A DNA stretch of 64,000 nucleotides from assembly GCF_932294415.1 (NCBI RefSeq), contig NC_065541.1:53484290-53548289 (forward strand), written 5' to 3'. Of the stretch, positions 2,516-53,186 are shown in pieces (within the stretch, counting starts at the first letter, position 1; each line of letters opens with the position of its first letter). The notes below the pieces were generated by a model. The model saw only the letters and a list, made by a program, of their open reading frames with translations, was not told where the DNA came from and did not search any database. The translations under genes were made by a program, and so were the position numbers. This DNA is from Quercus robur. Taxonomy: Eukaryota; Streptophyta; Magnoliopsida; Fagales; Fagaceae.

Positions 2516-2559
2516 GGAAGAACATTGTGTTTTTTTTTGAGGGGGAAGAACATTGTGTT
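2516..2559 (-). mobile_element. Ultra-short poly(A) insertion with 16-bp target-site duplication
   Basis: GGAAGAACATTGTGTT occurs perfectly at 2516-2531 and 2544-2559. Between the copies is only a 12-base insert, TTTTTTTGAGGG. Read on the minus strand this is CCCTC followed by a poly(A) tail. The arrangement fits an almost completely 5'-truncated retroposon integrated by a LINE machinery; simple slippage would not give a 16-bp flanking repeat. Confidence 0.65.
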
Positions 2560-2867
2560 AGATAAATGAGTGTGAAACAATATTTTCCCCTTATTAAGTT
2601 ATCATTAATTCATTATGATATATACTTTATTTTGTGCATGCCAGTGTGAGTGTGTGCACTATTACCAAGTTACCCTTGGCCTTTGGCATGCTTTCCATAA
2701 AATGTATGTGTACGTGCAGTTGTGTGTAAAAAACGACACCCTTTTACAAACTACACCATTATCATGATCAAAGCATGATTCAAGTGGATTTTGGTTCTAT
2801 TCTTACTTTAAAAGAAAAAACAATGGGTTTGCTTTTATTTCAAGCAAAGGGGAAGGTGTTTATTTTT

Positions 2868-2985
2868 TAGTGAGTTTCAACCTATAACATTTGTTCTTGA
2901 TGATAGTTCTTTATTATCAAACCAAGACATCAATCAATTTTTGGTATAGGCTGGGATTGAACAAGGGGAATGTGATTTGGTTTAT
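2868..2985 (-). mobile_element. Degraded tRNA-derived SINE fragment
   Basis: The stretch matches, with many changes, the same family as the SINEs at 22303-22466 and 36299-36474. Shared landmarks are TTTCAACCTATAACAT, the TTTATTATCAAACCAAGACATC block and a following TTGGT-TA segment. Orientation is minus. The 5' (tRNA-like) end is too diverged to delimit. Confidence 0.55.
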
Positions 2986-3164
2986 TTATTTGAGTAATAA
3001 ATTAATGTAATGCATCTTTTTGTCTATAATTGGTTCGTGCATTATATAATAGGACTCCTGTGAATGGATGTCTTAATGCATGAATGGACTCCAGCACTAA
3101 TGTAACAAATAAGTCAAGAGAGTCAAATTTGCTGCCAGATCTACATTCTTAATAGAATCTTCAA

Positions 3165-3220
3165 CTTTAAAATGATATATTTCTCTCCAAAAAAAAAAAA
3201 AAAAAAAAACCTTTAAAATG
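3165..3220 (+). mobile_element. Ultra-short poly(A) insertion with 10-bp direct repeats
   Basis: CTTTAAAATG at 3165-3174 recurs at 3211-3220. The 36-base insert is ATATATTTCTCTCC followed by about 21 A and a C. It has the same architecture as the other short A-tailed insertions in this window. The shorter repeat makes it weaker than the 13-18 bp cases. Confidence 0.45.
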
Positions 3221-3538
3221 GAAGAAACTTATGCTTGTTTGTTCGCTTGAGACCAATTTTGTTACTTTTTCTAGTTTATGAGGACTAAAAATGAACATAA
3301 TGATCCACAGGGGAATAAGAGGAGAAAATGGGATAAATATATCAAAATTCATGGGTAAACGCAATATCTTTTCAGTTGATTCAAGATCAATGGATAGCAA
3401 AGTGGTTTGTACTTTGTATTTAAAAGGATTACATAACTACATAGAGCAAAAAATTCGTTTTACTACAGGAATTAAATACAAGAAAAGTACGAATGAACCT
3501 TCATGTTTTGTTTGTTACAAAATTGCATGACTTGAAAA

Positions 3539-6086
3539 TTAAATGTCCTCTTCGGAGATTAAATTGTCAAAATCACTGCTTAGAAACAGTTGAATAATCT
3601 CTTCTGGAAAATCAATATCTTCATTGGCCCCAAAACTGTATGATTCATCTTGTAGCAGTGATGGAAGTGGTGGAGGTGGAGGTGGAGGCAGAGAATGTTG
3701 CTGCTGTGGAATGGAGTTCATGAACATTGAAGGGTACCGGTTCATAGTCTCGTGACCGGAATTTTGGGACATGGACGGAGTCATACTTCTAATTTCATTG
3801 GCATCTATAAGATTCCCTTCGTCATGCCCAACATACTTCCCATCACTGGTCATCTTGATTCCACCAACACAAGGGTTACTGGTGAATAAACGTGGATGTT
3901 CATTGGCATTGCTTTGTGATTCAGTGCTTAACATGCTTATTAGACTGTTAATGTTAACTTGGTCATCTTGGAAATGAGTTGAACCCACCTGAGTCAAGCC
4001 CTTATGAGTACCATGTTCTGCAATCCCAAAATATGATCCACTGTTGTTGTTTAGAGGAGCTGCATCAATTTTAGATGCCTTCCCATGGTTATGTTCATAT
4101 GCTTTGGGTTCAAGCATATGAGCATAACTATAGGAAGGCACGGTAATGTTGCCATTGCATACTGGTTGAGTCAGTGTCCTGTTGGGTAACTTAATGGAGA
4201 ACTGAGAATTTAGCTGTTGTATATTAAGAGGAGAACCGCCAAATAGCTGTTGTATATCATGCACAGAACGTGTAGACTGCTTTCCTTCCTGAACTTGCTT
4301 TAAGTTCCGACGGTATTTCTGCAAAAAAGACACATCCTTCATCACCAAATATATATATATATATATATATATATGAAAGCCTCCAGTATATAATCCAAGA
4401 GCATATCAAGTAATTCTGCAACACAAACTCATACTTGGATGAGTCTGAAATTAATTGGAATTTCTTTAAATTTGATTTGTCTTCCATTGCAAGATTTGGT
4501 GATGCAAGGCGGAGAGATTGCATAATATCTTTGGACAACAGAAATGTGCATAAGAGTTTGCTTCCTATTTTCAGAAAGTAGAGATTTGGGTATATTATCC
4601 AGGTAGATATTCTACTGGATCGTTATTTTCACACAACAAAACATTCATGAACTTGCACCTTGTTTTTCTTTTCTTATAAAACAAGCTATCTGTTATAGTA
4701 TGAGCAAAGACAAGTAATTTCTTGTTTCCTTAATTAAAAAGGAAATATGTGATACTATTGCAAGGCATATGTAAAGCAGACCAAGGAACATACCTGCAAG
4801 TGGCTTGCAACATGACGTCTAGTTAATCCAGGCACATTCATAAACTCAGATACTCTCTTAGGGACAGCCCCTACATTTAAATAATGGGAAAAAAATCAAG
4901 AAAAATGAGAGAGAGAGAGAGAGAGAATAATAGTTAAAATTTGAAGATGGAGAAAAAAAATAAAAACAAAAGGAGAATGACAACCATATCTGATAGAAAG
5001 CATGCATAAGGTCTCTTACTTTCAAGTCCCAAGTGGTTGATAGCTTCCAAAAAATTTTCTTGCAACTCATTAGTCCACCGAACCTTATGCCTTTTTTGTG
5101 GGGTGGAATCATCTTTATCTACTTCTTTTTGTTCTCTTCTCCTCCGTGGTTCTGGTCTATTAGCGTCTTGATGTACCCAAGTTGCTTCACTAACAGATGT
5201 GCTCGCCATTGTTTTACTTGCTTTCTGTGCAAGGAGATGTTGCCAGAGGTTTTGAACTTCATTTGAGTTTGAAGGCTTCATGATATATAGTGAAATGCCA
5301 CATTCAAGATCTTGTGATACGAATTTCTCCATAAAATTGGCAGACATCACTAAATAGACAATGAAAAAAAAATTAAAATCAATAACAGAGAAAGAAAGAA
5401 AAACCTTAATGCTCCAACTAATTGCTGAGATGTCAGAAGAAAAAATTTCAAAGTTTCACTTATGTTCAATTCTTCTCAGCAATTAACCTATGTAATATAT
5501 GTATGCAAATGAAAAGTTATACTTACAGATAACAGGAAAGTTGAATTCCTTCTCAAGGCAATTCAGGAATTGAAACCTGTTCATTTCTGGCATATAGACG
5601 TCTGTCAGAACAAGGTCGAGTCTGGCCTTCCTCTCTTGAATAGCCTCTAATGCTTCAGTTGGCTTATCATAATGAATAACTGATAGAGAGACAAAGAAAA
5701 AAGTCATGACCATGTAATCAAATGTTGGCAACCTTTTATAACTAAGATTAAGGTTGACATGTTTTTACTGTTATCATTTTTAACCATCTAATTCTATCAA
5801 ACTGTCATTTATTAAAAGCTATGGAGAATATTTGGAATGAATTTATAGCATACACAAGTCGGAAGAAAAATATTTCCAAATATCTCAAAAGGAAAATTCA
5901 TAAGAGAGATTTAGACGTATGGACACATCATTTTAATGCAGTACCTTCATAATTGCCTTCTTTAAGCATCGTGGTTGCAATGTGATGACATGTAGAACTA
6001 CCTTCTTGTACCAGAATGCAGATTTCTGAAGGAAAGTTGTCAGTTTTGTTCCACTCAATTGTGCTAGAATGAGTAGAATCCATCAT
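3539..6086 (-). CDS. Type-B response regulator-like transcription factor RR-A (atypical receiver)
   Basis: The five exons are 6086-5945, 5679-5527, 5349-5020, 4870-4794 and 4318-3539. All junctions are GT/AG and the sum is 1482 nt, 493 residues plus TAA. The receiver domain spans about residues 20-140 and the GARP/Myb B-motif about 185-240, with the intact VASHLQKYR signature. The C-terminus is long, Gln/Asn/Ser-rich with a proline run, and ends in the acidic EEDI. Type-B regulators normally take a phosphate from His-phosphotransfer proteins in cytokinin signalling and then bind DNA in the nucleus. Here the phospho-acceptor Asp74 (LTDVYMPEM) and Lys123 (MKP) are kept. The Mg-binding acidic pair at the end of strand 1 (normally VDDD) reads VQEG (Gln27, Glu28), so normal phosphorylation is doubtful. 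The start is the first of two adjacent Met codons. A (TA)n tract sits in intron 4 near 4348-4374. Confidence 0.88.
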
Positions 6087-6937: not shown

Positions 6938-7413
6938 ACAGTACTTATTTAGGTAATATGTTAGTAATTGAATGAGAGGTTAGTAACTTAATAATTGTTT
7001 GGTTGTGTACATTAAAAAAGATGTAACTGATAATATTGATGGTGAAACTATCATATCACGCAATGATTTCAAAATATGAAAACTTGTGAAAGGAAATTTT
7101 AAAATTTTATGTATTTGCGTATGTTTTTATTTTGTGAGGTTAATATATTCAAGTTTTATTATTATTAAATTTTTTAAATTTAATTGTTTTTAATAACCAC
7201 CCTGAAAAGAATTTATGGAACTACAACTAACAGGAATAACCATTCAATTGTTTGGTTATATTTTTATTACAAGTAATAGTTATTCCTTAAAATGAAGAAT
7301 AGTTATTCCTTATCAATATGAATGTAATTGTCATTCCTTATCCTACATAATTAACTACTATTAAAAGAAAGTTACCAAAATACCCAAAGCTACTGCTGCT
7401 ATTCTCTTTCTCC

Positions 7414-7461
7414 ATTAAGGGTAAATTGTTTCTAAAAAAAAAAAAAAATTAAGGGTAAATT
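7414..7461 (+). mobile_element. Ultra-short poly(A) insertion with 14-bp target-site duplication
   Basis: ATTAAGGGTAAATT is perfectly repeated at 7414-7427 and 7448-7461. The 20-base insert reads GTTTCT followed by 14 A. It is a plus-strand member of the short A-tailed insertions described in the findings. Confidence 0.65.
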
Positions 7462-9885
7462 TTTTAAATCATAGTCATAAATACATACCTATATCATGAG
7501 TTTCTATCATTAAAAACACTGTGATCCTGCAGATAGAGCATTTAGTACTCATCTTGTCAGGATTGTTTGAATTTATGTGACCTTTTTATACATTGTTTAA
7601 AGTAATCTCTGTCTGTAAGTTTATTGAGTCCCATTTTACATATTCCTTCTAGGAGAGAGATTTATTACTTGACCATAAATGTGGCTAGTACCATTTAATA
7701 TAAACTTAAAACCTTACCATCAAGGTTTTAACAAACACAGGTATTAATTAAGAGTAATGATTATCTTTTTTTTTTTTTTTTTCATTACACTCACATTTTT
7801 TAATACAAATTCTTTGTACCACTTTTTGTGTACCACTTTATATTCCACCAATCACTACTTGTCATGTTTTGATTTTATTTTCCTTATAAAATAATTGAAG
7901 TTTAAAATGGAAAACAATCATAGACATAGCAAGTAATGATTGATGAAACATAGAGTAATACACAAAACGTGATATAGAGAATTTGTATTCCACATTTTTG
8001 CCCACGCCATGTTACTGTTGTAAACTTTGACACCATTAATCCTGCAATATTTGGATTCCGGGATTTAATTACATGATTGTTGGTGATTAGGATGCTACTA
8101 TAACAAATTTGACAACATCCACATGCTTGAAGATTGCTTGTGCATATATATTGTTATGGCTACCTCAATGCAATAATTTGGAGAAGAATTGGTTAAAAGA
8201 ATAATTTTATTTCTGTTAATTGGACATTGTCTTCTGAACAAAAAACAATGCATGATTAGAAGTGAAATTAGCTAGATGGAAGAGTGCAACAAATCAGCTT
8301 GTGAAGATAACAGGGCATAGACGGCATTTTAAAATTTTATTTAGTGACAATTCTAAACAGTATCGTTACCAAAAGATCTCTTATGAGGCGAAGACACAAT
8401 TGTAAGGGTGACATAGATGGCCACCAGGTCACCACGCAGAGCTATTTGCCTCTCCAACATAGTTCTTAAGGTGCAAATTATTAGTGGTAAATAAAAAAGT
8501 GATATTAATAGTATGCTTAGATGAGAACCAGTGCAAGCTTGCCAACTCAAACGTTTTCAATTTTTTTGCACAAGTACCATTGCTCTTACTGCTTGTTTCA
8601 TGTTTTTCTAGTTGGTGTTATTGTTTGGAGAGCAACAAGCATAATATTTGCATATTATGTGTAGTTTTTTAAAACTTCAATTTTTTTTTTTTTTTTTTTT
8701 TTTTTAAGATACAATGATACTTTTACCCAACTAATTTTTTATGAAATAACCAGTCTGAAAATTTCAGATTTTTGAAAATTATTTGTTAGAGATGTTTTTA
8801 TTTATTTTTCATTTCATATAATATTTTGAGATTTATGTAATGACAAATGGCGGGAGACGGCCTTTTCACTTTATCAGTGCCATATTCAAAAGCACATTAA
8901 TCAACATAATGGGAAAACATCCTCATATTAAGATGATGCATAAAATAATACCTATACGTTTACTGGTAACAAAGATCAAATTTCCATGTGCGTACTTATA
9001 ATAAGCGAGTCTCATTATTTTTTATGCAAACTCAAATGACTAGATTTGAATAGAAGCCTTAAAACTTAATACTATGCAACTAGAAAATGGCTTTTGTTTA
9101 AGGTTGAAAACATATATCTAGCTTTTAGTTGTTTAAAATAAAATAATGGCATTATAACCTCAGAAATTAGAGTTTTAAGGATTGAAGTATCACTAGAACT
9201 AACAGAGCTGTATGGCTTGATGCAGATCTCATAGAAAAGAAAGACAGTGTAAAACAAATTGTCATAACAGACTGAATAGTGAATAGACAAAGATATCCGT
9301 CTGACAGTATTTTATTGTAATGCACGAAAGAAATAGCAACCAAACAAAACATCATCAAATTCAAGTACTTCCTCCTAACCACTATCCATCAAACAGTGCT
9401 TTATTGTAATGCTAATAAGAAATAGCAACAAAACAAAAACAACATCATCAAATTCAAGTACTTCCTCCAAACCACTAACTGTAAACTCAAACCATCAGAC
9501 TCAAATTGGAAAACAAATGATAAGTTTTACACTTTTCTTGCTTGGATTCCAAACTTTCACCCATGGCTGAAGTCATATTTCTGGAATCTCACTGTCCATG
9601 TAAAAAGCAATATTAATGTCCAAGAACATGGCCTCTTCTCGCCCTTGTGGCGCCCAAATGTTGAAACACTTGGCTTATAAGTGCGAAGAATTTTCAAAAT
9701 TCCAGGACAAAGAAAGACGGTACATAAAGGTCTGTGTTAAGTAGCATTAATATACCTGGACACAAAATTCATCTATTACCAGAGATCATCAAGTTCCTCA
9801 TCATGCATGATTAGGGTCTTTAGAAAGATCAAATAATTCTTCTATTTCTCCTCGTTAAGACCCAAAAAAAGTCATGTTATTTTGG

Positions 9886-12800
9886 CTACTGTGGTGGTTG
9901 TGATGGTGGAGGTAGTGGCTGATATGGTTGCTGCAGAAATGGTTGCTGCTGCCGCAGAAATGGTTGTTGCTGCTGCAGAAATTGTTGTTGTTGCTGCTGC
10001 AGAAATGGTTGTTGCTGCTGCAGAAATTGTTGTTGCTGCTGCAGGTGTTCTTGTTGTGTGTTATCACTCAGAAAGACAATATTATGCACACCAAAAGGAT
10101 CCATGTTCCTGCTGACGGTCTCTTCACCACTAGAATTTCTGATCTGGACAAAGCCTGCTAACTCATTGCTAATGATCCAACTTCCAACATGACTAGAATT
10201 AGGAAAAGTATAACCTAGCTGACTGACTGGTGGAGTCAATTGCCCATACATAGGATTGGATGGATTACTACAACTTGAGTCTATGTAATTAGGAACATGT
10301 GTGGAACCAACAAAGGGCATGTAGATGTGACCACTTAAATTCCTCTGCAAACCATTTCCAAGCACTGGTTGATATGATGTTGATGCGGATTGCTGATTTG
10401 AAAATCGAAGTCCATGAAAATTGAATGCTGATGAAGGATAGTATGATCCAAGGCTTGAGTCTACATAATTAGGAAAATGTGCAGAACCAAGGAAGGGCAT
10501 GTACATGTGACTACTTAAATTCCTCTGCAAATCATTTCCAAACTCTGGTTGATATGATGTCGATGCGGCTTGCTGATTTGGAAATTGAAGAAGTCCATGT
10601 AAATTGAATGCTGGTGAAGGATAGTGTGATCCAAGGCTTGAGTTTACATAATTAGGAAAATGTGCAGAACCAAGAAAGGGCGTGTACATGTGACTACTTA
10701 AATTTCTCCGCAAATCATTTCCAAACTCTGGTTGATATGATGTTGATACAGATTGCTGATTTGAAAATTGATGAAGTCCATGTAAATTGACTGCTGATGA
10801 AGGATAGTATGGTCCAAGGCTTGATCCAGTAGATTTTCCAATCATGGTCTTTTGAATTGCATCTTGTTGACATTTCAAGGGGAGATGATTTTTCTGCAAT
10901 GGTAACATTTATGGTAAGTTCCTTTGAGTCACAACTGACACCATTGTGCCATTACCAGATCTGTACACATCTACCGAAAAAATTGGAGTATAGAGCAAAA
11001 CATTTCTTGATACCTATCTAAAACAAAAGATGGAATTCAGGAAATTCAGAAGTCACTGTGAAAAAGTAACTATGCTGCAACTAAGTTTCATTTAGAAATT
11101 TAGGATATTTTTTCCTTTTTTTGCTCAGCATGGCAAATTGGGATTCAATTATTACTATTTCTTGCCAAATTGAAATACCAGCGTATGTCCAAAGGGTGCT
11201 TACATATTTTCATAGAGATACCTCTCAATTCAAGAACAAAATTTGAAAAGATTGCACTTCCTTTCAAAATACAAACCTGTAAATGCCTTGAAATATTTTC
11301 CCTTTTCAGTCCCGGGGCATTCATTTGCTGAATTATCTTCTTTGGATGAGCTGCTAAATCAAGACAGGAATCATGTACCATAATTATGAAGAGTGGAGAC
11401 AGTACCAAATAGGATAAATTTTCACCAGCAAACTATAATTATGAAAATGCTTACTGTCAATGCCTAATACATTAAAAGCTTGTGGGAATCTGTTGTGTAA
11501 CTCATTATTCCAAACTAGATTTGGCTTCTTTAGGACTGATGAATCATAATTCTCTTCCTCCTCATCTTTGTTCATCTCTTCTGGTGCTTTTCTTTTGGCC
11601 TTTTGGTGGCTTTGCTCCTTTTTATTCTCAAATGGCTGATTCACTGATTCCTCAGATAATGCCCGTTGACCACTGCTTATTCTATCAGCAGCTAAGGTTT
11701 TGTCACTTTTCTTCATGAGTGCAAACTGCCAAATGTTTTTCATGTCATTCAAAGTGATTGGTTTCACGAGATGCAACACAGCACCTTTAAACAGGCTGCC
11801 TAACATGGCTTTCTCACTATCATCAGCTGACATAACTGCATTAGGAATAAAAGACAGAAAGTGTCAGAGAGAAGAAACCGCCCATTGAGAACATTTTGTG
11901 GTAAAAGAAAACAAAAGAAAAAACCGAATCTGGAGTGATACTTACTAATGACTGGCAATTTAGACATTTCTTGCATTCTCTCTAGGAACTCATATTTATC
12001 CATGTCAGGCAAATGAGCCTCTGTCACAACAAGCTGAAGATCATCTTTCTCCCGTGCAATTGCCAATGCATCAGAGCCTTGCTTAGCAGTCACAACTGGT
12101 GGTGAAATGATTAGGAACATTCAGAAAATAATTCTAGTGAAATGTTAGTCCCGGATGCTAACAAAGAAGACATAGGAAAAGACAAGATAAAGAAAGTTTC
12201 AAAAGTTCTGAGGAGCTTGTGGTTGAAACGATTGCAATCTCCAACAACTACATTGAGCATATTAGTCCTGAAGGATATAATACATATCTGTCTCTCTAAA
12301 TTATGAGAATATATGATGTTTTCTTCAAATAGGGCTGTAACATGTCAATGTTCATCACAATAGCAAAAGGGAAGCAATGAAAACATCATAATTGCAGGGT
12401 TGGCTTTGGGCCTAGGCTTAAGACACCCCATTAGAGGAAAAAAGCCCTAATACTCCAAATTTTGAGATAATTGGTCTTCCAAAGAGGGAGAAAAAAAACA
12501 TAATTGGCTTGTATGCTTTCTCCCCCACCCAAAGAAAGCTCACAAAATTTTCAGCCATTAGAAATCCAACCCAATTGAAACCCTAGTTGTTTCACACACA
12601 CAAAAAAAATGTTGATCAATTTTCCTAACAGCTTGAGACTTCAATTTTTCTAAACTAGTTTCTCACAAGGTAAATTATTAACATTACCCCCTCAATCTCC
12701 CACATAACCATGCATCAAACACTCTCTCTCTCTCTCTCTCTCAACACCATTATCAAAATTGGAAATTAAATTTCAGCTTTCCTTCACCATGTATCGCCTC

Positions 12801-13819
12801 TACCTAAGATAAAGTAAAACTTACTTTTTTTTAAATAAAAATAATAAAATTTGCTATTTTTGTTAAATTCTACGTCTGAACCATAAAATTTGATTCTTTA
12901 TACAAAATTAATCTTGATTTAGTTAGTTCTAATTCATCGATGTGTGTCTAATTCGTTTTTGGTTGGGCAGATTGAGGTTATTAGGTGATTCTATACTCTA
13001 TAGTTAGCTAAAGTTGTGATAGTGCCTTTGATCACTTAGATTCTATTGATCTATGTCTTAAATTTATTTTATTCTTGTCAAATTATAATTTAACATTGTA
13101 GATAGTGATCTTCTTATTTGAAAATATTTTTCAATAATAAATGACTACTAGAAAATATCAATTTAGATATGAGAAACTTTTGAAATGAAAAGTGGGATTG
13201 AAAGAAAAATATAGAAAAACTAATTGAATCTCAGATAGAAAATTTCATTTAAAAAAATACCTAGTCCAAAAACTAAATTATTAATTTTGTTTATCAAATA
13301 GCACGAAGAATTTTTAAATAAACAATTTGCAAGAAGAATGAATTTTAAATAAAAAAATTTATAATAGAAAAAGTGAAATAAATATTATTAAAATATTATT
13401 TAATTAAAAAAAAAAAAAAAGATCCCACTGAAAATTGTCACCTTAGGTTTCAAACAGTGTCGAGTCAGCCTTGCATATTTGCTATAAATTTTTCATTAAT
13501 TAGTGAATATTGATTATAAATCAACTGGAAAGAGAGAGAGACCCAAAAAAAAAAAAAAAAAAACCACTGTTATATCTTAATTAGGATCTTAGAAAAACAA
13601 GAAAAATCCCAAAAGCATATAAAAATAACAACAAAAAGAAAGAATTGTTTCTTCCTATTCTAATCTCTATTGCTTACCTTTGTAACCAAATCTATAGAGC
13701 ATTTTTGATATGAAGGTGAGACAGGTAGAATCACCGTCCACAACCAAAACGCTGACATCTCTAGGCAATGAACTGGAATTGTGGACAGGTTCAACTGAGA
13801 TGCTCTTCTCACGGTTCAT
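9886..13819 (-). CDS. Type-B response regulator-like protein RR-B, with Glu at the phospho-site and a shortened C-terminus
   Basis: The five exons are 13819-13678, 12095-11946, 11835-11455, 11353-11277 and 10893-9886. They total 1758 nt, 585 residues plus TAG. The receiver is about residues 20-140: Asp28 is kept, position 29 is Gly instead of Asp, the phospho-acceptor is Glu73 (VTEAHLPDM) and Lys122 is kept. The GARP/Myb region is about 202-255. Its hallmark SHLQKYR reads RHLQKNH, and the helix start reads VWNNELHNRF, so DNA binding may be impaired. The C-terminal region has three tandem 61-residue modules and a long Gln tract. It stops at TAG (9888-9886), where the paralogue RR-C continues for about 50 residues. 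The downstream homologous DNA has further stops and indels. It may be an expressed diverged regulator or an early pseudogene; the long open frames and clean splice sites favour some constraint. Confidence 0.82.
9928..10046 (-). repeat. CAG-type codon repeat encoding poly-Gln in RR-B
   Basis: The stretch is an imperfect array of TTGCTGCTGCAGAAATGG-type units on the plus strand. On the coding strand it gives Gln runs broken by Phe-Leu or Pro-Phe-Leu pairs. RR-C has only a single short counterpart (LQQPYQP), so the expansion is specific to RR-B. Repeats of this kind are prone to length polymorphism. Confidence 0.85.
10267..10815 (-). repeat. Three tandem 183-bp coding modules in exon 5 of RR-B
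   Basis: The phrase CCAAGGCTTGA recurs at about 10448, 10631 and 10814, exactly 183 bp apart. Each module encodes about 61 residues with the landmarks YYPSSAFN, STSYQPEFGN, LQRNLSSHMYMPF and FPNY. The third module is one codon shorter and more diverged. RR-C carries one copy, so the array arose after the gene duplication. Because 183 is a multiple of 3 the frame is kept. Confidence 0.9.
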
Positions 13820-13927
13820 GCTGGTTACGCTATAAAAGACAAAATGAAGCTCCGAGATGGGGAAAATATTTGGTTAGAGCACTAACAAAGTCAAGAGAGA
13901 AAGAAAGAGAGATGCTTATACCACATG

Positions 13928-13935
13928 CTTATATA
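13928..13935 (-). promoter_or_regulatory. Probable TATA box of RR-B
   Basis: TATATAAG on the minus strand lies about 110 bp upstream of the RR-B start codon. It is embedded in a context (CACTATATAAG) conserved at the same distance upstream of RR-C. Confidence 0.55.
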
Positions 13936-14995
13936 GTGTATATTGAGATTCATACAATTCTAACTCAAAAGGAAGTCTCTGACAAAACTATTTATTTTTA
14001 CAATTGGCTAGTGCTAGTGTTATTGCAGGGCGCTTATATTGGCCAGCAATTGCAATTATAAACTAGAAACTCATTAGTCAAGCAATATTTCTTCTGTAAT
14101 GTAAATTTGCAAAGCAACAAAGTAAAAGAGTTGGTAATTGATTTGAGCACCCTAAGCTTTTCAACTCTTTTGAAAAGTTGGGAGCAGGAGCACACAGTAA
14201 AGTCCAGAGAATATTTAGCATGTCATTTATCAAAATCAAATTTGCCACGTATAAAGAGGGAGTCAAGTTCAATACTGAGCTTCCTTGTAAAAAATTTAGG
14301 AATTTTGTACATGCCACATATATTAAAAATATATTAATACGGTTAATTACTTTCACAGATTTATTGTGCTACATTTATATAAAAGCCTTAATAAGGCTAC
14401 CTTCTTTAAAAGATTTATTTCATTTAATATTATAATCTCGACTTGTTCAATTAGAGTAATTCATGTTGCTCTTAGTTGTTAGAGGTCTCAAAACCTATTT
14501 GACTGTCATAGACTTGATAAAGTAAGTAAATTTAGCTAACTTATTATTAAATCCAATTTAAGTTTCACAGTTTAGTCTGGGAGGCTCCACACCTAGCATA
14601 TCAAGGGCCATTGCAAAGATACATGACTCCATGATTTTCCCATTAGTATTTTTTAAACTCTGCAGATGATCACTTGACTGTTGCATGCATCAATATCAAA
14701 CACATATACTAGGATCTCCAATAACCACAGGATTTACTTATGGTCTCATATTTGGAGCCCAACATACCATAAGTTTCTCAAAATAAATTCTTATAATATT
14801 CCTGAATATCCTAGTTAGTTTGTCTGGTGTCAATTTCCGGAACAAGCTGCTGTTCATTTGTTACATGATTTATTTAAAACTGCCTGCATTCCTTTCATAG
14901 TTGAGTTATCAACAGCAGATAGGAATATAATTGAGAATGGGTGGATGAATGAAAAAGGCTACATTTTATGATCTGGCAGATAACTTCATGCCTAA

Positions 14996-16560
14996 TCAAT
15001 CTCAAAGTGCTTGTATAAAATCTTCATATTTGATTTTCCAATTTCTACTACATCAATTATGATTGATTAGGCTCTGACACAAACGGATACCATAATAAAA
15101 GAATTCTTGTTTGTATTCCTGTACAAATTTTCAACTTTTGAAAATTTATTTAGTGACACATCAAAACTATATCGTTACGAAAAGATATTACTGAGGCGTA
15201 GATGTAGTTGCAAGGGTGACAGATGGTCACCATGCAGAGCCATTGGCCTTGACAACAGAGTTGTTACCAAAAATGTGTTGTTATGGCATAAAAACATTTT
15301 ATAAAATAATTTTATTGCTCATTTCATGTTTTCCTAGTCTGCATCATTATTTTGAGAATGACAGTATTGCCTTGAAAGTTTTGAATAGATTCCAGATTTG
15401 TCAAAATTTTGGAAATTATTTGTTTGAGATGATTTTTATAGTAATTTTCATGTCATATAATGTTTTGAGATTAACATGATGACAAATTGTAGAAGACAAA
15501 TTTTCACTTTATCAATATCATATTCAAAAACATTAATCAACGAAATGGGAGAACATCCTCACATAATTAATATGATGCATAATTAATACCTAGATGTTTT
15601 CTTGTAATAAAGATCAAATTTCTATATGCATAATAATAATAAGTAAGCCTCATTAATTTTAAATTAGACTCAAATGACTAACTTTGAGTACCACTTCAAG
15701 CTTCAGAAAACAACTTTTGTTTAAGCAATAAAGAATATATCTAGCTTAGAATTATGGCTAAATGATTAATCACGCCTAATCAATCTCAAAGTGCTTGTAT
15801 AAAATCTTCATATTTGATTTTCCAATTTCTACAACGTCAATTATGATTGATTAGGCTCTGACACAAACAGATACCGTAATAAAAGAATGCTTGTTTGTAT
15901 CCCTGTACAAATTTTCAACTTTTGAAAATATATTTAGTAACACGTCAAAACTATATCGTTACGAAAAGATATAACTGAGATGTAGAGGCAGTTGCAAGGG
16001 TGACAGATGGTCACCATGCAGAGCCATTGGCCTTGGCAACAGAGTTGTTACCAAAAATGTGTTGTGATGGGATAAAAACATTTCATAAAATGATTATATT
16101 GCTCATTTCATGTATGCCTAGTCTGCATTATTATTTGGGGAAATGACAGTACTGCCTTGAAAGTTTTGAAAATATTCCAGATTTGTCAAAATTTTGGAAA
16201 TTATTTGTTTGAGATTGTTTTTAAAGTAATTTTCATGTCATCTAATGTTTTGAGATTAACATGATGACAAACTGCAGAAGGCAATTTTTCACTTTATCAA
16301 ATCATATTCAAAAGCATTAATCAACAAAATGGGAGAACATCCTCACATAATTAATATGATGCATAATATAATACCTAGATGTTATCTTGTAATAAAGATC
16401 AAATTTCTATATGTGTAATTATAATAAGTGAGCCTCATTAATTTTAAATTAGACTCAAATGACTAACTTTGAATAACACTTCAAGCGTTAGAACCTACAA
16501 ACCTTGCAACTAGAAAACAACTTTTGTTTAAGCTTTAAAGAATATATCTAGCTTGTTAGA
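14996..16560. repeat. Tandem repeat of about 780 bp, two copies
   Basis: The phrase AATCAATCTCAAAGTGCTTG begins both copies, at about 14996 and 15777. Colinearity runs through TTGATTTTCCAATTTCTAC, the TATCGTTACGAAAAGATAT block and the ATTATGGCTAAATGATTAA phrase. A single related copy lies near 8340-9060 in the other duplication unit. The function is unknown. Confidence 0.8.
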
Positions 16561-17201
16561 ATTATGGCTAAATGATTAAATTCACCATTTTCTAACAAGT
16601 TAAGCTTTTAGGACAAAGATAGGAGATCCCATTTGGCCCCACTAATTAAGGGGGAGTTTAGGCCCATGCATGAGGCGAAGTGTTAGAATTACAGTAGAAA
16701 ATGAAGACAGTCTAACCCAAATTGTCATGATAGACTGAATAGTGAATAGACAAAGATATTCATCAAACAGTGTTTTATTGCAATGCAAGTAAGATATAGC
16801 AACCAAAGAAAAACAACATCATCAAATTCAACTACTTCCTCCAAACCACTATCCATCAAACAGTGTTTTATTATAATGCAACTAAGAAATAACAACTAAA
16901 CAAAAACAACATCATCAAATTCAAGTACTTCCTCCAAACCACTAAGAGTGGACTCAAACCTTCAGACTAAAATTGAAAAACAAATGTAAGTTTTACACCT
17001 TTTGTGCTTGGATTCCAAACTTTCACCCAATGCTTAAGCCATAAATCTGGAAGCTCACTGGTCCAAATAAATAGTGATGTCAATGTCCATGTACATGGCC
17101 TCTTCTCACCCTTGATGCCTAAACATTTAAAAACATGGCTTATAAGTGTGAAGAATTTTCAAAATGCCAGGAAAAAGAAAAAAGGTACATAAACTTCAAC
17201 A

Positions 17202-19864: not shown

Positions 19865-19926
<62 letters not shown>

Positions 19927-21052: not shown

Positions 21053-21156
21053 GCTGGTTATGCTATAAGACAAGGTAAAACTCAGAGATGAAGAAGATAT
21101 TTGTTTTGAGCACAAACAATGTCAAGAGAGAGAGAGAGAGATGCTTATACTGTATT

Positions 21157-21164
21157 CTTATATA
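21157..21164 (-). promoter_or_regulatory. Probable TATA box of RR-C
   Basis: TATATAAG on the minus strand lies about 105 bp upstream of the RR-C start. It is the positional counterpart of the RR-B TATA box, with the same CACTATATAAG context. Confidence 0.55.
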
Positions 21165-25545: not shown

Positions 25546-28500
25546 CTACTTGAACAAAAGGCGACGCCTAACAGACTTGGAAAGATTTGGATTTGACACT
25601 TTTCTCTTCTCTTTTGAGGTCCCATCACCCTGACTATCAGAAACCCTCGGTAGATCTTCTCCTGGTTTTAACTGAATTTGAACTTTGGTTGAACGGTAGA
25701 ATTCAGTAATACTTAGTTGGACACCTCGTGAACTTTTTAATTCTGACTTTTCATTTGTCCCTTCAGATCTTAAGCTTGAACTCTTTTTTCGTTTGGATTC
25801 TTTTAATTCCTGCAAAATTTCAAGCACACAGAAATAATCATGTGGCAGCTCCAAAATTAATAAATAACTTTTTAGTTCAAACTTTTTTTTTTTTGGGTTG
25901 TAAATCCTATAGTTCCAGGAATCCGCCTCTCTAAAAAAATGGGGGTAAGGCTACCTACCAATCACCTCTCCCAGACCCCACAAAAGAGGGAGCTTTGGGC
26001 ACAAAGTATGGCCTTTTTTGTAAATTCTGAAGTTTGCCAAACCATTTGCAGAAAACCCCAACGAATACAAAGGGAATACCTTCATAGCACATCAAGCAAC
26101 TTCCCTAAAAGATCTCTTTTCTAGCTAACAACACTCATTGTATATATTATAAAAGGTAGGTTTAATTACCATTTTGGTCCCTAACATTTGTCCTGTGTCA
26201 AAATGGTTCCTACCCGTTTCAAATGTGTCAATTTGGTCCCTAAACTTTTGATATTGTGTCAAAATAGTTCCTAAACTTTTATGTGATAGATAGAAAATGC
26301 TAACATGACCAATAACAATATTAAAACATTAATTTTTTTTATGCCATCTAGGCTTTCATTTGGACTGCCACATGGCCTTAATTTAAAAATAAAATAAGTA
26401 AAAGTCTCAATGGTATCCTTCAGCCACCAACACCATGGTATCACAACACAAATCTATAGGCCACTGCAAATACCGCTGCCTCAATTGTCTCTCAAGATTG
26501 ACTCCCATCGCAAAGTGACTACCCGTATCTCTCTCTCTCTCAAAATAAATTGATATGTTGTGGGCTGTGGTTGCTGAACCTTACCTCAAAACCCTAACCC
26601 CACCACCACAATAAAAGGTCTCTCGGTCTATCTTTCTATTTATTTTTTAAAATTTTTGTTTAAGAAGAAAGTAATGGTTGATATGCCTTGTCATTTTTCT
26701 CAAGGAAGATCATAGGGAAAAGTGAACAAGCACCTTTAGTTCAGCTTACCAGGTAAGTTTTCCGATTGTGCTTTCTCTGTTTAGGTCAGTTTTATTTTTA
26801 TTCTTTTGTAGTCAGGGAGGAAGAAGCAAGAGTGGCTGCGGTGACCCATAGATTTGCATTGTGGTGGCACAGTGTTGATGGCTGAAGGGGTTGGGTCTTC
26901 TGATGGCAGCAGGGGTGCAAGAGAGAGTGTATAGTTGAGAGTTTTAAAAAAAAAATAAGGCCAGGTGACATTAAAAAAAATATATATATATTTTAAAAGT
27001 TTTGTTAGCCACGTTAGCTTGTTTTTTTTTTGATAAGTAATAAGATATATTGATAAAAAGGAACACCCAAGTGCACCGGAAGTGAACAGCCACGTTAGCT
27101 TGTTCTATCCATCACTTAACATTAGGGACTATTTTCAATATTTTGACACATTTGAACCATTATAAACCATTTTGACACATAGGGCAAACATTAGGGACCA
27201 AAATGGTAATTAAACCTACAAGGTATTATCACCAACTTCTTGCACATTCATCAATGCCTTCCTTTTATTTAGTTTCTTGTCTTGCCATCCATTAATCTCT
27301 ACAACCTTGTATAAGAAACTGAACAACAGTACTTTCTAGGCATTTCAGCTCTTGATAGTCCTGAATTTTGGACTGTAAGCACAATTGCCAGTAAATCCAC
27401 TCTCATTTTCTTCCTTAAATTTGATAAATTAATAGTGATGCATCTTTTTTAAATTATTTTTCAAAAGAATTTCTCTTAACCTATACTGCTCTAATTATAC
27501 TAATATATTATTCTAGCCTTGTCCAGACCTCCACCTTAGCACCTCCTTTCACAATTAACCAAATAAATATAACAGAAAGTCATCTCTATTTTTCTAGGCT
27601 GTCAATATTCACTATCTCTTGTTACAACTTACAACTCCTAGCTTGAATAATCCAATATAGCAGATATTCAACAAATGCCAAATCCAACAACTAACCAGAA
27701 TTCTTGACATTAACATCCTCATTTAACAATAACTAAATTAAATTATAACCATGACAAAATCCAGATAAGAGGGGATAAAAAGGAATAAGAAATGGCCAAG
27801 ATATAAAAAATATATATTTAAAAAAAAAAAAAAAAAAGAGAGAGAACACACCTTTTCATGCAAAAATCTGTCAACTTCTTCTGGAAAAGCAGCCCGAACA
27901 ATGTCCATATTTTCATCTGTCAAAAGGTAGCAGCTACCCTCCTCAACATGAATCCTGGGGCCCTCAGACTCATCCCCTAAATCAAGAGATTCATCAACAT
28001 CCACAACATCTTGTTGCATATCAGACTCCTCAGAAAGGATTGAATTCATAATACTGCCCAGGGCAGGCACAGCTTTTTTCCACTTGACCACATAGAATTG
28101 ATGCCCATGTCTTATCTTCAGACGCTGTATAGAGTCAAACTCATACTGCCCATGTAACAAAGTTTTTACAGGATTTATTGCCATTTCTCGTAAGAACACG
28201 GTGGACAACATAGGAAGCATCATCCGCCGAATGTAGGATGGCTCCCAGTGCTGATGAAAAGCTAAGAAATCAACAAGCATTTCAGTATTCGGGCTTCCCC
28301 ATGATATGCAAGGACCAACTTCTTCTGTACAAAAATTCAAGAATCACAGTTACAGAGCATGGCATTCTATAATCCAAAAAATGTATACAAAATTATAATA
28401 AGAAGCAAAACATCTTAATACAACAAACTTTCAAAATATTGATCTTGTAGTTTTTCATTTAGCTTTTCCCAGGGCCTGAATACTGGCCTGAACAACGGAG

Positions 28501-35406: not shown

Positions 35407-35475
35407 ATTTTATATTTATTCTGTTTGCTTTTTTTTTTTCTTTTTTTTTCTTTTTTTTCATCATATGTATGAGCA

Positions 35476-35525
35476 ACAGAAATATTTTTTCTTCCCAAAA
35501 AAAAAAAAAAAAACAGAAATATTTT
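35476..35525 (+). mobile_element. Ultra-short poly(A) insertion in the ankyrin-gene 5' region
   Basis: ACAGAAATATTTT is perfectly repeated at 35476-35488 and 35513-35525. The 24-base insert is TTCTTCCC followed by 16 A. It lies about 175 bp upstream of the ankyrin start codon, probably in the promoter or 5' UTR. Confidence 0.65.
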
Positions 35526-43539: not shown

Positions 43540-43542
43540 AAT

Positions 43543-44871: not shown

Positions 44872-47800
44872 ATGGCTTCATATTCAAAGACCAAAGTAGT
44901 AATGCAACAAAGAAAACCACTTCCAAATGATGGTATTGGTAGGCCTAGAATGCTTAAAGATTTCCTCAATGACACATCAAATTCATGCACTTCAACCGGA
45001 TTCAAATCACTCCCTAGACAACCCTGCAATCCCAATGCACAAGTTTTCACCAACAATACAAATACCAAGTTACTTAGATGCCAATCAAAAGCTGCATCAA
45101 CAGCAATTTCAGCCCTCCAAGCCATGATCAACGCAGTCAAAAATTTTCCGTTGAAAAATTCCCCTTCAATTTTGCCAAGAAGCCTTTCAAGGAGACTGTC
45201 AAGAAAGAAACCAAGTGAAGTCAAAATTACAGTCAGAGTCAAAGACATCATACGGTGGACATCGTTTCGGGACTTGGTGGAGGAGAAATCTCAGCCCTTG
45301 GATTTCAATTCCTCGCCTAATCGCTGCACCACAACTACTATTACAACGGGGTCCACAAATACCACGTGTAGTAGCAACAGCTCAAGTTGGTGTGAAAGTG
45401 ATTTTACCTCGGAGCATCTACCGTCGTGGGGCGGTAATACTCAGGACAACGTTGTAAACGAGGTTGATGTAGGTAAAAAGTATTTACCACGTGTCGGCGA
45501 GGATTGTCAGAAAACGACAACAGGGACAGAAACTTATGCTGACGTGGGACCCAAGGTAAGCAATTATTTACTGCATCGCATCTATAAAATATATTGTATG
45601 TGTCTGCTAGTGAGGGTTCCTTGGATGATTATAAAAGTTTTATTTTATTTATTTATGGCATTGTCATTGTGTTTTTCTTGGTCAGATTCGGTTTGACTAA
45701 ATAAAATAAAAAGGCTGTGACAAATTTGATAATATATGATATAATTTGTGTATATATTTTATTAAAGTTGGTTTTGTCTCATTGTGACAATTGCACATAG
45801 TATATTATTATTATTTTTTGATGAACAAAAAAGGGTCTCACATAGTTTATTATTATTTGATTGGCACATAGTTTATATTATCACATCAAACAAAAGAGAA
45901 GTTACAAGGAACTGAGGATGTTGCTCCTCAAAAAAAAAAAAGAAGGGAACTGAGGATGTTAGTTTCTACAATATACTATTATACATTCTTAGTTTAAGAG
46001 TTTAGACTCTTTGCTTTCAGTGTTATATTTGTCGGATTCTACATTAATTATATGGTTTATATATATTTTGCATTTGCACAACTTGCTACGCAACACAGTT
46101 CAAACAGCTGGAGATTAGTGTTACAAATTATTAATTAAAAATTCGTATATCCTATTTTACTTTACAACATTAGCATGAATCTTAATTTAGTGATAATTTG
46201 TAGATAATGCATTATTTAGTGAAGTGAACCTTAAACTAGTGTTAGAAACTTAATTGTATGGGCATTAAAGTTTAAAATCAACTTTCTCCTTTGAATTCAA
46301 CACAATGATACATCTAGTGTACATCCTTAAAATATAAAATATCACAGAAAAATTGAGAAAATAAAATAAAATAAAATATCTAAGTTTGTTCAAAAAGTAG
46401 GTTATAAGAAATTGTTCTTTAATTTTTTTACTATATTCAGTTAGCTCCAAATTATGTGTAGGTTTACATTAATTATATGTTTCTCAACATAGATTCTTCC
46501 CTATGAAAAAAATCAAACGATATTATTGAACCACGATACTCTTAGGGTCTGTTTGGATAGAACTTATTTTGCTGAAACTGAAAACTTAAAACTGAAAACA
46601 CTGTAGCAAAATAATTTTTAAATGTGTAAATAGTGCTGTGGGACCCATTTTTAATGAAAAAATTGATAAAAAATGAAATTTGTGGGTCCATGAACAGTGC
46701 ACGGACCCACTGATTGACAGAAAAGTAAAAAAAAAGGGCCAAACAGTACTCTACTGTTCGCTTGTCCCCTGAAAGTCTGAAACGCGTGTAGGAAAAAAAA
46801 AAAAAAAAAAAAAAAGCAAAACGCAAAACGCAAAAGTAAACGTGAATCCAAACTTACACTTAATCACTCGAACACATTTTGATATTATGTGTAGGAGTGA
46901 CTTCTTTTCTAATAAATAATTTTATTATTATTTTTTTATTTTTTATAATGAGAATCGTTTGATAAGTAACTTTAACTTGCATCTAAATTTTTGAATGCCA
47001 AGAATGTGTACTAACATTTAAAGTTGCTTGATTCTCAAAAAAATAAAATAAAAATTATAGTTGCTTCGCACATAATTAATGGATCGTGATCCAATGAAAG
47101 GCAATGTTGAGAAACTCTCGATCTATGCTAAAATATCTTGATTTAAGGCACATATAATTTGAAGATTTTGACTATCAAACTTTCAAAATAGCTAGTGGGA
47201 AAATGCTTTAAAAAATATTTTTTTCCCAATCCCACATCTCTTTAGTCTTTTCTGTAGTCTTCAGTATGGTGATTGGTGCATAAATATTTTTCTATTGGTT
47301 TTTAATTTTTACTGATTTTGATTGGCCTAAAATATAAATTCTGACAGGGAGAATTATGGTGCGATGAGAAAGAACAGCAAAGCCCAGTTTCGGTGCTTAA
47401 TTTTCAAGTTGGAGAGGGTGAAGAGCCATTCTCATCTTTTACTCGAAGCCTTGCCAACATGGAGAGTATGTTCTTGTCTTTCCCTCGTCATTTTTTGGTA
47501 CACAAGTCTTCATGCACTATGGCCAGTATATAGGGCCTCACTTAGTTATAGGTTTTCATTTTTAATTCCAATGAATGTAGGGGCACAAAATTTTTTAAGG
47601 GTTAATGCGATTGACTTTGATTGGTGTCTAATAATAGTGGTATCACTTGTCAGAGTGAGTCCATAAAAAAAATGATGTTATTCCAATAACAACTTATTAT
47701 CTTAACAAATTATAAAAAAATTTGTGAAAAATTTTGTATCTCTAATATTACTTTTTTATTTGTGTGTGTAATTGGACTTTTAGGGGTATGATGCTTTTAA

Positions 47801-48512: not shown

Positions 48513-48664
48513 GAAGAATGGTTAATTGTGTTGGAAGAAAAGTAATGCTAAAGATGCAAAAATTTTCACAACTGTTGACATAGCTAGTTGTGATTGGAGC
48601 AAAACATTACTTTCACCTGACTTTACCATTGTTGACATTATTTTTATCATGCATCAATCGCAAC

Positions 48665-50310: not shown

Positions 50311-50969
50311 GGATTTTTTTTTATAAAATAATTATAAAAGTCAATCTATATTATTAGTTAGCGAAGGTTTGAAACAATTTTGGTATCTAACGACTCGAGT
50401 CTTTGACACTCGATTTTACTGTAGCAAACTGAGTTTAAGATACTCGATTTCTGTGTGCATCTTCTTCCTCCGTTCTTTTTTCTCTATTTCAGGTCCTGTT
50501 CACCATCTTCTTCCCTTCTTCCAAGCCCCCAAAAATTCATTTCATCTAAATCCCTTCTTCCTTCTCCATCTAAATCCATTTCTCAAAATCCCAAACCCAA
50601 ATCAACAATCTCAATCGGAGCAAAAATCCAAACACAAAAATCACAATTTCTTCCTGCGTTGGTGTTTTTTGGGCTGCGTTGCTGTGATGCAATTTTTGGG
50701 TTTCTACACTGCTCACGATTTCTTCTTGCGTTGGTGTTTTCTGGGTTGTGTTGCTGTGATTTCTGGGTTGCTGTGATTTCTGGGTGTTGTTTATTGGAGG
50801 GAAATCGAGTATGAGAGAGTGGAGTTCCAATGGAAATCGAGTCTTTCAAACTCGATTTGCTACAGTAAAATCGAGTCTCTCATGCTCGAGTCGTTAGATA
50901 TTAAATTAGTTTCAAACCTTGGCTAACTAATAATATAGTTTGACTTTTATAGTTATTTTAAAAAAATCC
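50311..50969. mobile_element. Non-autonomous Mutator-like element, sister of the element at 1174-1940
   Basis: A perfect 9-bp duplication ACCCCCATT flanks it at 50302-50310 and 50970-50978. Ends are GGATTTTTTT and AAAAAAATCC. Subterminal ATTATTAGTTAGC and GGTTTGAAAC match the terminal block of 1174-1940 (ATCATTAGTTAGC, CGTTTCAAAC). Just inside are TCGAGT-type palindromes (GAGTCTTTGACACTCGA, GAGTCTTTCAAACTCGA) and TTTACTGTAGCAAA. The 350-bp centre differs from the sister element and reads in frames full of Ser/Phe/Pro, possibly captured or just CT-rich. Confidence 0.85.
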
Positions 50970-51041
50970 ACCCCCATTTGCCAAGCTTTGTTATATTAAA
51001 GGAATGTTTGGTAGACTACTGTAAGTATGATTTAGCTATTT

Positions 51042-51096
51042 AGTAATTTGGTTATATTTATTTTTCAAAAAAAAAAAAAGTAACTTGGTTATATTT
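51042..51096 (+). mobile_element. Ultra-short poly(A) insertion with 18-bp direct repeats
   Basis: AGTAATTTGGTTATATTT (51042-51059) and AGTAACTTGGTTATATTT (51079-51096) differ at one base. The 19-base insert is ATTTTTC followed by 12 A. Confidence 0.6.
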
Positions 51097-51367
51097 TAAT
51101 TACAAGGAATGAATTGTTCTTTATGAATAACTATTTTTTAAAATAAGGAATAACTATTCTTCTATAAAAGAGGTGTAATAATTTCTAAAATTAATATATT
51201 TCCAAATAAACAAACTTTTTATATGCATATAATAATTATATATAAAAAAAAACTAATCTCTCTCTCAAATTTTTAAAAATATATATTGTTTTTTACGAAA
51301 TATAATTGTATTTTCTAAAATATATCTTAAGTTTTATTGTAATGTCAAAGAGCTTACAACCAAACTT

Positions 51368-51374
51368 ATGAATA

Positions 51375-51416
<42 letters not shown>

Positions 51417-51429
51417 ATGAATAGGTTTA
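51368..51429 (-). mobile_element. Ultra-short poly(A) insertion with 13-bp target-site duplication
   Basis: ATGAATAGGTTTA is perfect at 51368-51380 and 51417-51429. The 36-base insert is a G, about 30 T, then GAGGG. On the minus strand it is CCCTC plus a long poly(A) tail, the same junction as the insertion at 2516-2559. Confidence 0.65.
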
Positions 51430-52143
51430 ATTATTCTATTACAACACGTTTTATTCATAGTAATAAAAATTATTATTTATGTTGTAATTCACATTCAGTG
51501 TACCAGACGTGCTCTAACACACTTTTGGGATTTAAGTCATAGCCTAGTAATAAATTTATATTTTGTGGTATCCTGTGACTAATTTTTTGTTTTTAATAGG
51601 AAGACTAAGAATTTTATTCAAATAGAGAAATAGAAAGTTAGAAACTACATTAAGGAGAAAGCTTTTAATCCAAGTAGAAAACTCAACTCTATGAATACTT
51701 AAAACATGGTTTGCTAACAAATGGAATAAACAATAAAGCATGTTGATAATTACATAATCAACGCTAGAGTTTGATATTTTTTTAAGCTAAGCTCCAGATT
51801 TTCAAGAACATACATGTTTCACAAATCACAATACAATTTTAAATTATTGCAATTTAAAAACTTTATGAGTCTATATTAATCGAAATAAAATAAATTTTAT
51901 TTAAGATGTACTTGGTATTATCTAATTACTAAAAAAAAAATTCATCCATGAGTCAAATATTGACTTAATTTTTTTTTTTTTTTTTTTGAGAGAAGACTTA
52001 AAAAAATTGAAAAATAAATTATTCACGTAAAAAAAAAATTATAATAGATAAATTGTTAAATACGATATAATATTCACATGGAGGTATGTACGTAAATGCA
52101 CGTATCACAGATTCACATATTTGTCCCGCAACCATGGCTTTGC

Positions 52144-52201
52144 GATTGCCAAGTAAACTTTTTTTTTTTTTTTTGGTTGATGAGATTGCCAAGTAAACTT
52201 T
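52144..52201 (-). mobile_element. Ultra-short poly(A) insertion with 18-bp target-site duplication
   Basis: GATTGCCAAGTAAACTTT is perfect at 52144-52161 and 52184-52201. The 22-base insert is a T run followed by GGTTGATGA; on the minus strand it is TCATCAACC plus poly(A). Confidence 0.7.
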
Positions 52202-53140
52202 GATATACAATTATAATATTACAGATTCACTTCAATCGAAAAGTCTATGATAATCTGTGATAATCTTAATAGATAATTATCCTTAAGTAAATGATGATTC
52301 AGTCTAATCTTAATAGATAATTAAGCCATTTGCATGTGCTCTTGTACAGCAACTCCAAGGTAAGCTACTAAGCTTGGTGATACTCAAAGTTTCCAGTACT
52401 TAATTATTACTTACAACGTGTGACAAGTGCTGGGTTTATTCCTTAAAACCTTCGGAAATTAGGTTCAATTTGATGTGTGTAATTAAAATCTTATTTGTCT
52501 AATTACAAATTTTAGACCTAAAATATTATTAGCATCCTATACCGTGCTGTATTGTACGCCATCTATATACTACGAGCACACTCCATATATTGTGGTCTTG
52601 TATATACGTTTCCAAACGACCACAATTGTCTTTGATAAAATATAATTTGAAGCCTTTGGTGCTACAAATGGGCCATGTATTTAGAAGGATGTATTGTTAC
52701 ATAGGAATTCTTGTTTGTATCTTAAGTATGATTACACTTTATGTACATCAGAAGAGTACATGAGCTATCCCCATAGTTCTAGGTCAATGAGTGTGAGCTG
52801 ATTATTTAATAAAAAAAAGATTGTAAAAACCTTGTATTAATCATCGTATTTTTGTTTCTTTTAGTTGTCTCTTTGATTAGATCTAGCAGTGTATACTCAA
52901 AACCTTAAAATACCTAAAATAATATTTTTCACAATTATAAGTTTTTTTAAAAGAAATAATAAACATAATCTTTTAAAGGGGCAAGAGATCATGGATTCGT
53001 CACATAGCTAATTCCAAAGTCAAATTTCAAAATCTAGGATTCAATGAGAACAAATATGCGAGAAGCCCATTGCTAACCTTTCAAGCAACATTTTGTAGTC
53101 AACTCGGGTATTTATAATATTTGTCACAAAACAGAGTCAT

Positions 53141-53186
53141 AGTCTTTAGCATTATTCAAGCAAAAAAATAAAAAGTCTTTAGCATT
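53141..53186 (+). mobile_element. Ultra-short poly(A) insertion with 13-bp target-site duplication
   Basis: AGTCTTTAGCATT is perfect at 53141-53153 and 53174-53186. The 20-base insert is ATTCAAGCAAAAAAATAAAA. Confidence 0.65.

Follow-up and report, generated by a model that had tools for sequence, protein, structure and literature searches.

What process leaves a run of adenines, with only a few other bases attached, between two copies of a direct repeat? The question is raised by a 64,000-nucleotide stretch of the Quercus robur genome (RefSeq assembly GCF_932294415.1, contig NC_065541.1, positions 53,484,290 to 53,548,289), referred to here as the window, in which an earlier note made from the sequence alone had described at least nine such sites. 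Each consists of a direct repeat, a short body, an A (or T) tract, and the repeat again, and we refer to these insertions as stubs. We propose, with a probability of roughly 0.8, that they arise by target-primed reverse transcription (TPRT) by a plant L1-type long interspersed nuclear element (LINE) enzyme, with synthesis ending some 7 nt beyond the poly(A) junction. The sites are listed here with the target-site duplication (TSD) represented by the repeat, bodies and tails being read with the A-tail at the 3′ end.

2516..2559, minus strand: stub; 16-bp TSD, body CCCTC (5 nt), A9
3165..3220, plus strand: stub; 10-bp TSD CTTTAAAATG, body ATATATTTCTCTCC (14 nt), A21 then C
7414..7461, plus strand: stub; 14-bp TSD, body GTTTCT (6 nt), A15
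35475..35525, plus strand: stub; 14-bp TSD, body TTCTTCCC (8 nt), A17 (two A's common to the TSD)
45908..45960, plus strand: stub; 15-bp TSD, body GCTCCTC (7 nt), A12 GAAG
51042..51096, plus strand: stub; 18-bp TSD with one mismatch, body ATTTTTC (7 nt), A13
51368..51429, minus strand: stub inside a dispersed repeat; 13-bp TSD, body CCCTC (5 nt), A30
52144..52201, minus strand: stub; 18-bp TSD, body TCATCAACC (9 nt), A16
53141..53186, plus strand: stub; 13-bp TSD, body ATTCAAGC (8 nt), tail A7TA4
57508..57551, minus strand: stub; 16-bp TSD, body ATCTTAT (7 nt), A8
60559..60603, minus strand: duplicate of the 57508 stub, attributed to local duplication and not to an independent event
27007..27104, minus strand: longer relative; 17-bp TSD enclosing 56 nt from a LINE-type 3′ end, ...TTATTACTTATC-A10

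Direct inspection bears out the shared architecture at all nine main sites (2516 to 53141), each of which has the repeat, body and tract as described. The orientation of the A-tail is the same in all nine, the A-tract abutting or nearly abutting the 3′ copy of the repeat (or, as a T-tract, the 5′ copy), with 1–4 extra bases between tract and repeat at 3165, 45908 and 51368. Two other places had been put forward as weaker cases: the one at 57508–57550 is genuine, and the one at 45794–45857 is of another kind, with a spacer other than an A-tract and a repeat, CACATAGT, that is present three times. The 3165 stub has the shortest TSD of the nine and lies outside the listed rows of the scan and the length table discussed below, and the 7414 body, 6 nt by the exact repeat, shrinks to 2 nt when looser scoring extends the TSD.

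These structures are far more frequent than expected by chance. A comparison with shuffled sequence, which the earlier note had proposed, was carried out for the window, counting direct repeats of at least 12 bp with a period of up to 80 and an A/T tract of at least 7. There are 11 such loci, compared with a mean of 0.02 (maximum 1) in 100 dinucleotide shuffles and a mean of 0.11 (maximum 2) in 100 shuffles that left A/T tracts of at least 7 in place; the 11 count both 57508 and 60559 (one event, duplicated) as well as 58132, which has a 52-base spacer and a different architecture, and 3165 with its 10-bp repeat is outside them. Lowering the repeat length to at least 10 bp gives 16 window loci against shuffle means of 0.46 and 1.13. 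A scan anchored on the A-tail was also made over 264 kb, the window plus 100 kb on either side. At a score of at least 12 it found 12 bodies of 5–9 nt, with the duplicated stub counted twice, compared with none in a reversed-sequence control that yielded 3 bodies of 0–4 nt and 5 of 100–400 nt; at a score of at least 10 the numbers of 5–9-nt bodies are 17 and 1. Overall, the control produced 3 to 4 bodies of 0–4 nt and several longer than 100 nt, and because the real and control numbers of bodies above 100 nt are similar (17 and 10 at score 10), these long rows are mostly noise. Finally, 24 of 60 TC-A12 tracts reached a score of at least 10, versus 1 of 180 pairings with the downstream flanks swapped. 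The shuffles, the reversed control and the swapped flanks together rule out chance repeats as an explanation.

The bodies of the stubs have a preferred length. Thirty-eight rows, some of them doubtful, come from the scan of 264 kb and from 40 TC-A12 tracts; among them are 2 bodies of 0–4 nt, 21 of 5–9, 2 of 10–14, 7 of 15–30, 2 of 31–60 and 4 of 61–150 nt. The mode is 7 nt, and the excess at 5–9 nt has a p value of 2.6e-7 relative to equal density, with bins that were picked after the data were seen. One of the two rows at 0–4 nt is 7414. Eight rows had been dropped beforehand (five in a tandem array at 57.6–60.7 kb, the mirror row of 78849, and the tandem rows 93565 and 37570), and the scan behind the table missed 3165, 53141 and, through its A9 threshold, the 57508 copy; the tail at 53141 is also under the 8-A threshold of the 264-kb scan. 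Because the bins were post hoc, 20 further tracts were fetched with the prediction, set beforehand, that bodies of 5–9 nt would outnumber those of 0–4 and of 10–14 nt. Eleven of the 20 score at least 10, with bodies of 0, 6, 6, 7, 7, 7, 7, 7, 10, 103 and 115 nt, so that 7 of the 11 are at 6–7 nt and five are exactly 7. The 60 tracts were taken in order on the plus strand of contig C1, from 430454 to 2499207, among the 100 matches listed; six places were skipped, either as already fetched (L030, L069 and L134, each of them a stub) or for lying less than about 1 kb from a tract in the set. The fetched stretches are too short to reveal bodies above about 145 nt, and the comparison with long copies is therefore incomplete. 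Tail and body length are uncorrelated among the 21 rows of 5–9 nt (Spearman 0.06), with tails ranging from 9 to 30 while the body stays near 7. Two near-identical loci 3.5 kb apart on contig C1 (L174 and L175, at about 2.29 Mb) have the repeat directly against the A-tract with no body at all; they are the clearest candidate for a tail-only insertion, or else an older event.

That sequence was gained by precise insertion is evident from empty paralogues, which were sought within this one assembly and found at three sites, with bodies of 5, 16 and 21 nt. The stub at 51368 sits in a dispersed repeat (window 51079–51517) of which a genome search gave tens of copies, the longer matches at 66–79% identity. 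Fifteen paralogues were fetched from among those copies whose matches run past the site on both sides, and all 15 lack the body and tail and have one copy of the target, sometimes substituted. In the downstream flank, site 101321 (16-nt body) has one empty paralogue and site 78849 (21-nt body) has two, each with a single copy of the repeat. For these three sites the empty paralogues argue against an origin by slippage or by tandem duplication. Within the 264 kb, no paralogue was found to span one of the nine main sites. Genome searches with window positions 50950–53350 returned paralogues at 51368 only, and those with positions 2400–3400 returned only copies of a short interspersed nuclear element (SINE) outside 2516 and 3165, with no empty site for either.

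The duplications themselves have the dimensions and the starting bases of LINE-type targets. In 50 stubs with bodies of 2–16 nt from four samples, the TSDs are 10–23 bp long, 43 of them 13–19 bp, under a score threshold that itself favors longer duplications; L1-type TPRT is characterized by TSDs of about 7–20 bp. Twenty-nine of the 50 TSDs begin with AA (5.3 expected) and the preceding base is C or T in 42, giving a target of Y|AA; since extension of the TSD into the A's of the tail forces an A at +1 and a non-A at −1 in many rows, which weakens the argument, weight rests only on the AA excess and on the preference for C or T over G. LINE endonucleases have the target TT|AAAA, and Y|AA fits such an enzyme. 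Retroposition and extreme 5′ truncation, both suggested in the earlier note, are supported by the empty sites, the 10–23-bp TSDs and the Y|AA preference, but its proposal that only the tail remains needs amending, as a body, most often of 7 nt, is usually left as well.

Where do the bodies come from? One of them, ACTTATC, is identical to the last 7 nt of LINE-type copies, and occurs twice as a body in the 264 kb, both times in the downstream flank. Genome-wide there are 1,952 instances of ACTTATC-A10 compared with 87 for a reversed control, 1,587 compared with 24 for TACTTATC-A10, and 2,611 compared with 223 for CTTATC-A10. Twenty ACTTATC-A10 sites were sampled, about every fifth among 100 matches listed. 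At a score of at least 9, four bodies are exactly 7 nt, none is 8–14, three are 20–24, and two are 87 and 114 nt; the other 11 of the 20 sites have no scored duplication, several of them being longer copies, and below the threshold one body reads 8 (L038) and another 15 nt (L037). Two follow-up sets (L049–L064 and L069–L088) gave bodies of 6–8 nt in 9 of 16 and 7 of 20 sites at the same score, but they were picked for a base before the motif unlike that of the LINE, are enriched for stubs on that account, and are excluded from the length distribution. Seven LINE-type copies (L029, L033, L039, L046, L034, L040 and L045) have their last nine bases before the tail, TTACTTATC, in common, some with differing sequence upstream, and several copies with this ending have a predicted hairpin some tens of nucleotides upstream.

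A second recurrent body, GTTTCTC, matches how certain longer copies with poly(A) ends terminate, and plausibly derives from the 3′ end of a LINE or another polyadenylated RNA. The more general pattern GYTYCTC-A10 occurs 4,385 times in the genome and 95 times in a reversed control. Among 20 fetched sites there are seven bodies of 5–9 nt, one of 13 nt with a low-complexity duplication and one of about 10 nt below the threshold, and some of the sites belong to longer poly(A)-ended copies. Bodies of 5–6 nt in these pattern searches cannot be separated from bodies of 7, because the pattern demands the motif, whose first letters may then lie within the duplication. The earlier note had given the end of the SINE family as ACCTC-A(n), which turns out to be the end of one copy only. 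Five SINE copies share GTTGAAACTC and then diverge, one into a TC repeat and the other four ending in ACTCTCTCTT-A, ACTCTCT-A, ACTCTACCTC-A and ACTCACT-A, and none of these five ends equals any of the 28 bodies of 5–9 nt (21 plus the 7 held-out). The comparison of junctions with LINE and SINE 3′ ends, likewise suggested there, thus gives a LINE-type match for ACTTATC but no exact SINE match. CCCTC, the body of two stubs, is one letter from ACCTC, and these two may be of SINE origin. Rfam at gathering scores gave no match, and a tRNA scan run with the bacterial setting found none.

These observations suggest the following sequence of events. The LINE endonuclease would nick the bottom strand; the T-rich primer so exposed would anneal with the poly(A) tail of a LINE RNA or of another polyadenylated transcript; the enzyme would copy the tail and a body of about 7 nt before synthesis stops; and the short cDNA would be joined to the staggered nick in the top strand. 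Because the tail varies from 9 to 30 while the body stays near 7, the stop would be measured from the junction of body and tail, not from the primer or by the number of nucleotides added. The stop may come about because the enzyme holds on to the rA:dT hybrid and lets go once the last A:T pair has moved out of a contact zone some 7 bp behind the active site. The minor groove binding track of HIV-1 reverse transcriptase (RT) lies behind the active site. This track on the template-primer is described for HIV-1 RT (PMC3185545). A similar feature might be carried over to LINE enzymes, and it is by this analogy that we infer the cause of the 7-nt stop. A further and tentative step, to which we give somewhat less than even odds, is that the LINE RT passes an early checkpoint at which many events abort about 7 nt past the junction and are sealed in, so that the stubs would be a fossil record of abortive TPRT. 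Such a stop can be likened to abortive initiation by RNA polymerase or to the template boundary of telomerase.

The alternative that comes closest to accounting for the same features is that the template was already short. A 5′–3′ exonuclease would trim the 3′ ends of LINE RNAs or mRNAs as far as a bound RT or poly(A)-binding protein, whose edge lies some 7 nt before the tail begins, and the enzyme would then copy all that is left. With a protected edge the body length would likewise be set from the tail junction, whatever the length of the tail, but no observation points to RNA trimming in particular and the bodies of 15–24 nt require a second protected edge; we regard this as possible, though unlikely. 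It is a good deal less probable that the enzyme is halted by a fixed RNA structure lying immediately 5′ of the last 7 nt. The hairpin predicted tens of nucleotides upstream in some ACTTATC-ending copies could explain the 15–24-nt class, yet no common hairpin ending at −7 is present in nine ACTTATC and seven GTTTCTC-type copies folded singly, and similar body lengths occur with unrelated bodies.

Two other proposals concern the origin of the inserted bases. SINE copies cut down to the tail would give the same architecture, and A-tailed SINEs are indeed present, a SINE remnant of 30 nt near 95513 appears by eye to lie between TSD copies, and the CCCTC bodies come within one letter of the end of one SINE copy. 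None of the 28 bodies of 5–9 nt equals a SINE end, however (five copies being few for defining the end of a family), and ACTTATC is LINE-type, so a SINE source for the stubs is improbable. Break repair or replication slippage would produce a local tandem duplication with filler and involve no RNA. The window does have four direct repeats of 14–16 bp with spacers of 8–32 bases and no A-tract (4211–4257, 7275–7312, 38951–38989 and 54045–54108), the product expected of this process, and these may have arisen in that way, which would make them another source of short insertions. For the stubs, the single-copy paralogues without body or tail at three sites indicate a gain of foreign sequence, and the uniform orientation of the A-tail in nine sites, the swapped-flank control (1 of 180) and the recurrence of ACTTATC and GTTTCTC make break repair highly improbable.

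TPRT that ends about 7 nt past the junction is the reading we prefer, and several points weigh against it. Of the three empty-site cases, just one (the stub at 51368) falls within the 5–9-nt class, and for many bodies, TTCTTCCC and TCATCAACC among them, no source was found. Upstream of the ACTTATC-A end at L131 a match to the LINE zinc-binding domain zf-RVT (PF13966, E 1.8e-5) speaks for the proposal, but its score of 25.7 is just below the Pfam cut-off of 27.5; an RT-like-looking piece at the same locus has no Pfam match, and a domain search with three other protein pieces gave nothing credible. Tails may have changed length since insertion, which weakens the argument from the junction, and the broad TC-A12 pattern has a high reversed control (33,748 compared with 47,324 real). 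A 15-nt body, TCTACCATTTCAGTC, is present at two unrelated sites, one well supported (L106) and the other with only an 8-bp repeat (L127), and two more sites have similar bodies, 15 and 16 nt long. The length rule of 7 nt is thus not universal. The bodies at L106, L127, L117 and flank site 101321, all unrelated sites, are 15–16 nt long and start with TCTA(C/T)C or TTCTATC, and they possibly mark a second preferred stop in another family.

The stubs are abundant on either of two extrapolations to the genome assembly, which has 785.7 Mb in 42 contigs. The 14 scored bodies of 5–9 nt in the 264 kb correspond to about 42,000 genome-wide if this one region is typical, and bodies of at most 15 nt in 21 of the 60 TC-A12 tracts, extrapolated from 2.5 Mb at the start of contig C1, correspond to about 16,600 of the 47,324 tracts in that class alone. 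There may perhaps be tens of thousands of stubs, and they may outnumber the longer tailed LINE copies. They are too short for repeat maskers, and their preferred end would provide an in-genome readout of the stop in first-strand synthesis. As a rule, 5′ truncation of LINEs is observed only where a copy is long enough to be recognized, and with such a readout the question of why LINEs truncate would become testable from sequence alone. Many short A/T-tract indels and new A-microsatellites could likewise have their origin in stubs, and every stub is a marker with a known ancestral state.

The surroundings of the stubs have other repeated features. Palindrome-rich repeats of about 35 bp are present at 1174–1494, 1662–1940 and 50318–50969, with related copies 49 kb apart, and segments 8327–15065 and 15136–22996 form a tandem duplication about 69–90% identical in pieces. 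The open frames in the window look plant-like, and those of the tandem duplication look, by recognition, like type-B response regulators.

How do the stubs compare with known systems? Severe 5′ truncation is already known; it is the preferred length and the abundance that are unexpected. According to a review of retroposons, nearly all L1-clade LINEs of flowering plants end in poly(A) and truncated LINE members are 100–1,000 bp long (PMC3747384). The stubs resemble these ordinary 5′-truncated LINEs in their poly(A) ends, 5′ truncation and LINE 3′ ends, but differ in that most scored bodies are 5–9 nt and few are 10–14. Tailless retropseudogenes, described in the same review, are also retroposed pieces, in their case of truncated small RNAs, though without poly(A), of which the stubs mostly consist (PMC3747384). 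For human LINE-1, an early switch to second-strand synthesis is proposed to cause truncation, and nicking of the top strand before the first strand is complete offers a truncating step, with no fixed length predicted in the part of the account available (PMC7617806). A review of human retrotransposons reports truncation and A-tails, and the sections at hand mention no fixed-length class (PMC4859970). More generally, no fixed-length ultra-short LINE stub is described in the available parts of the literature searched, a search with most subscription journals outside it. Another likeness is a poly(T) insertion in exon 25 of human NF1, for which severe truncation of an Alu, an L1 or a processed pseudogene has been put forward as a possible origin (PMC3219598), and which is likewise an A/T-tract insertion with almost no element sequence. 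The NF1 case is a single disease insertion, whereas the stubs described here are abundant across a plant genome and have bodies of a preferred length.

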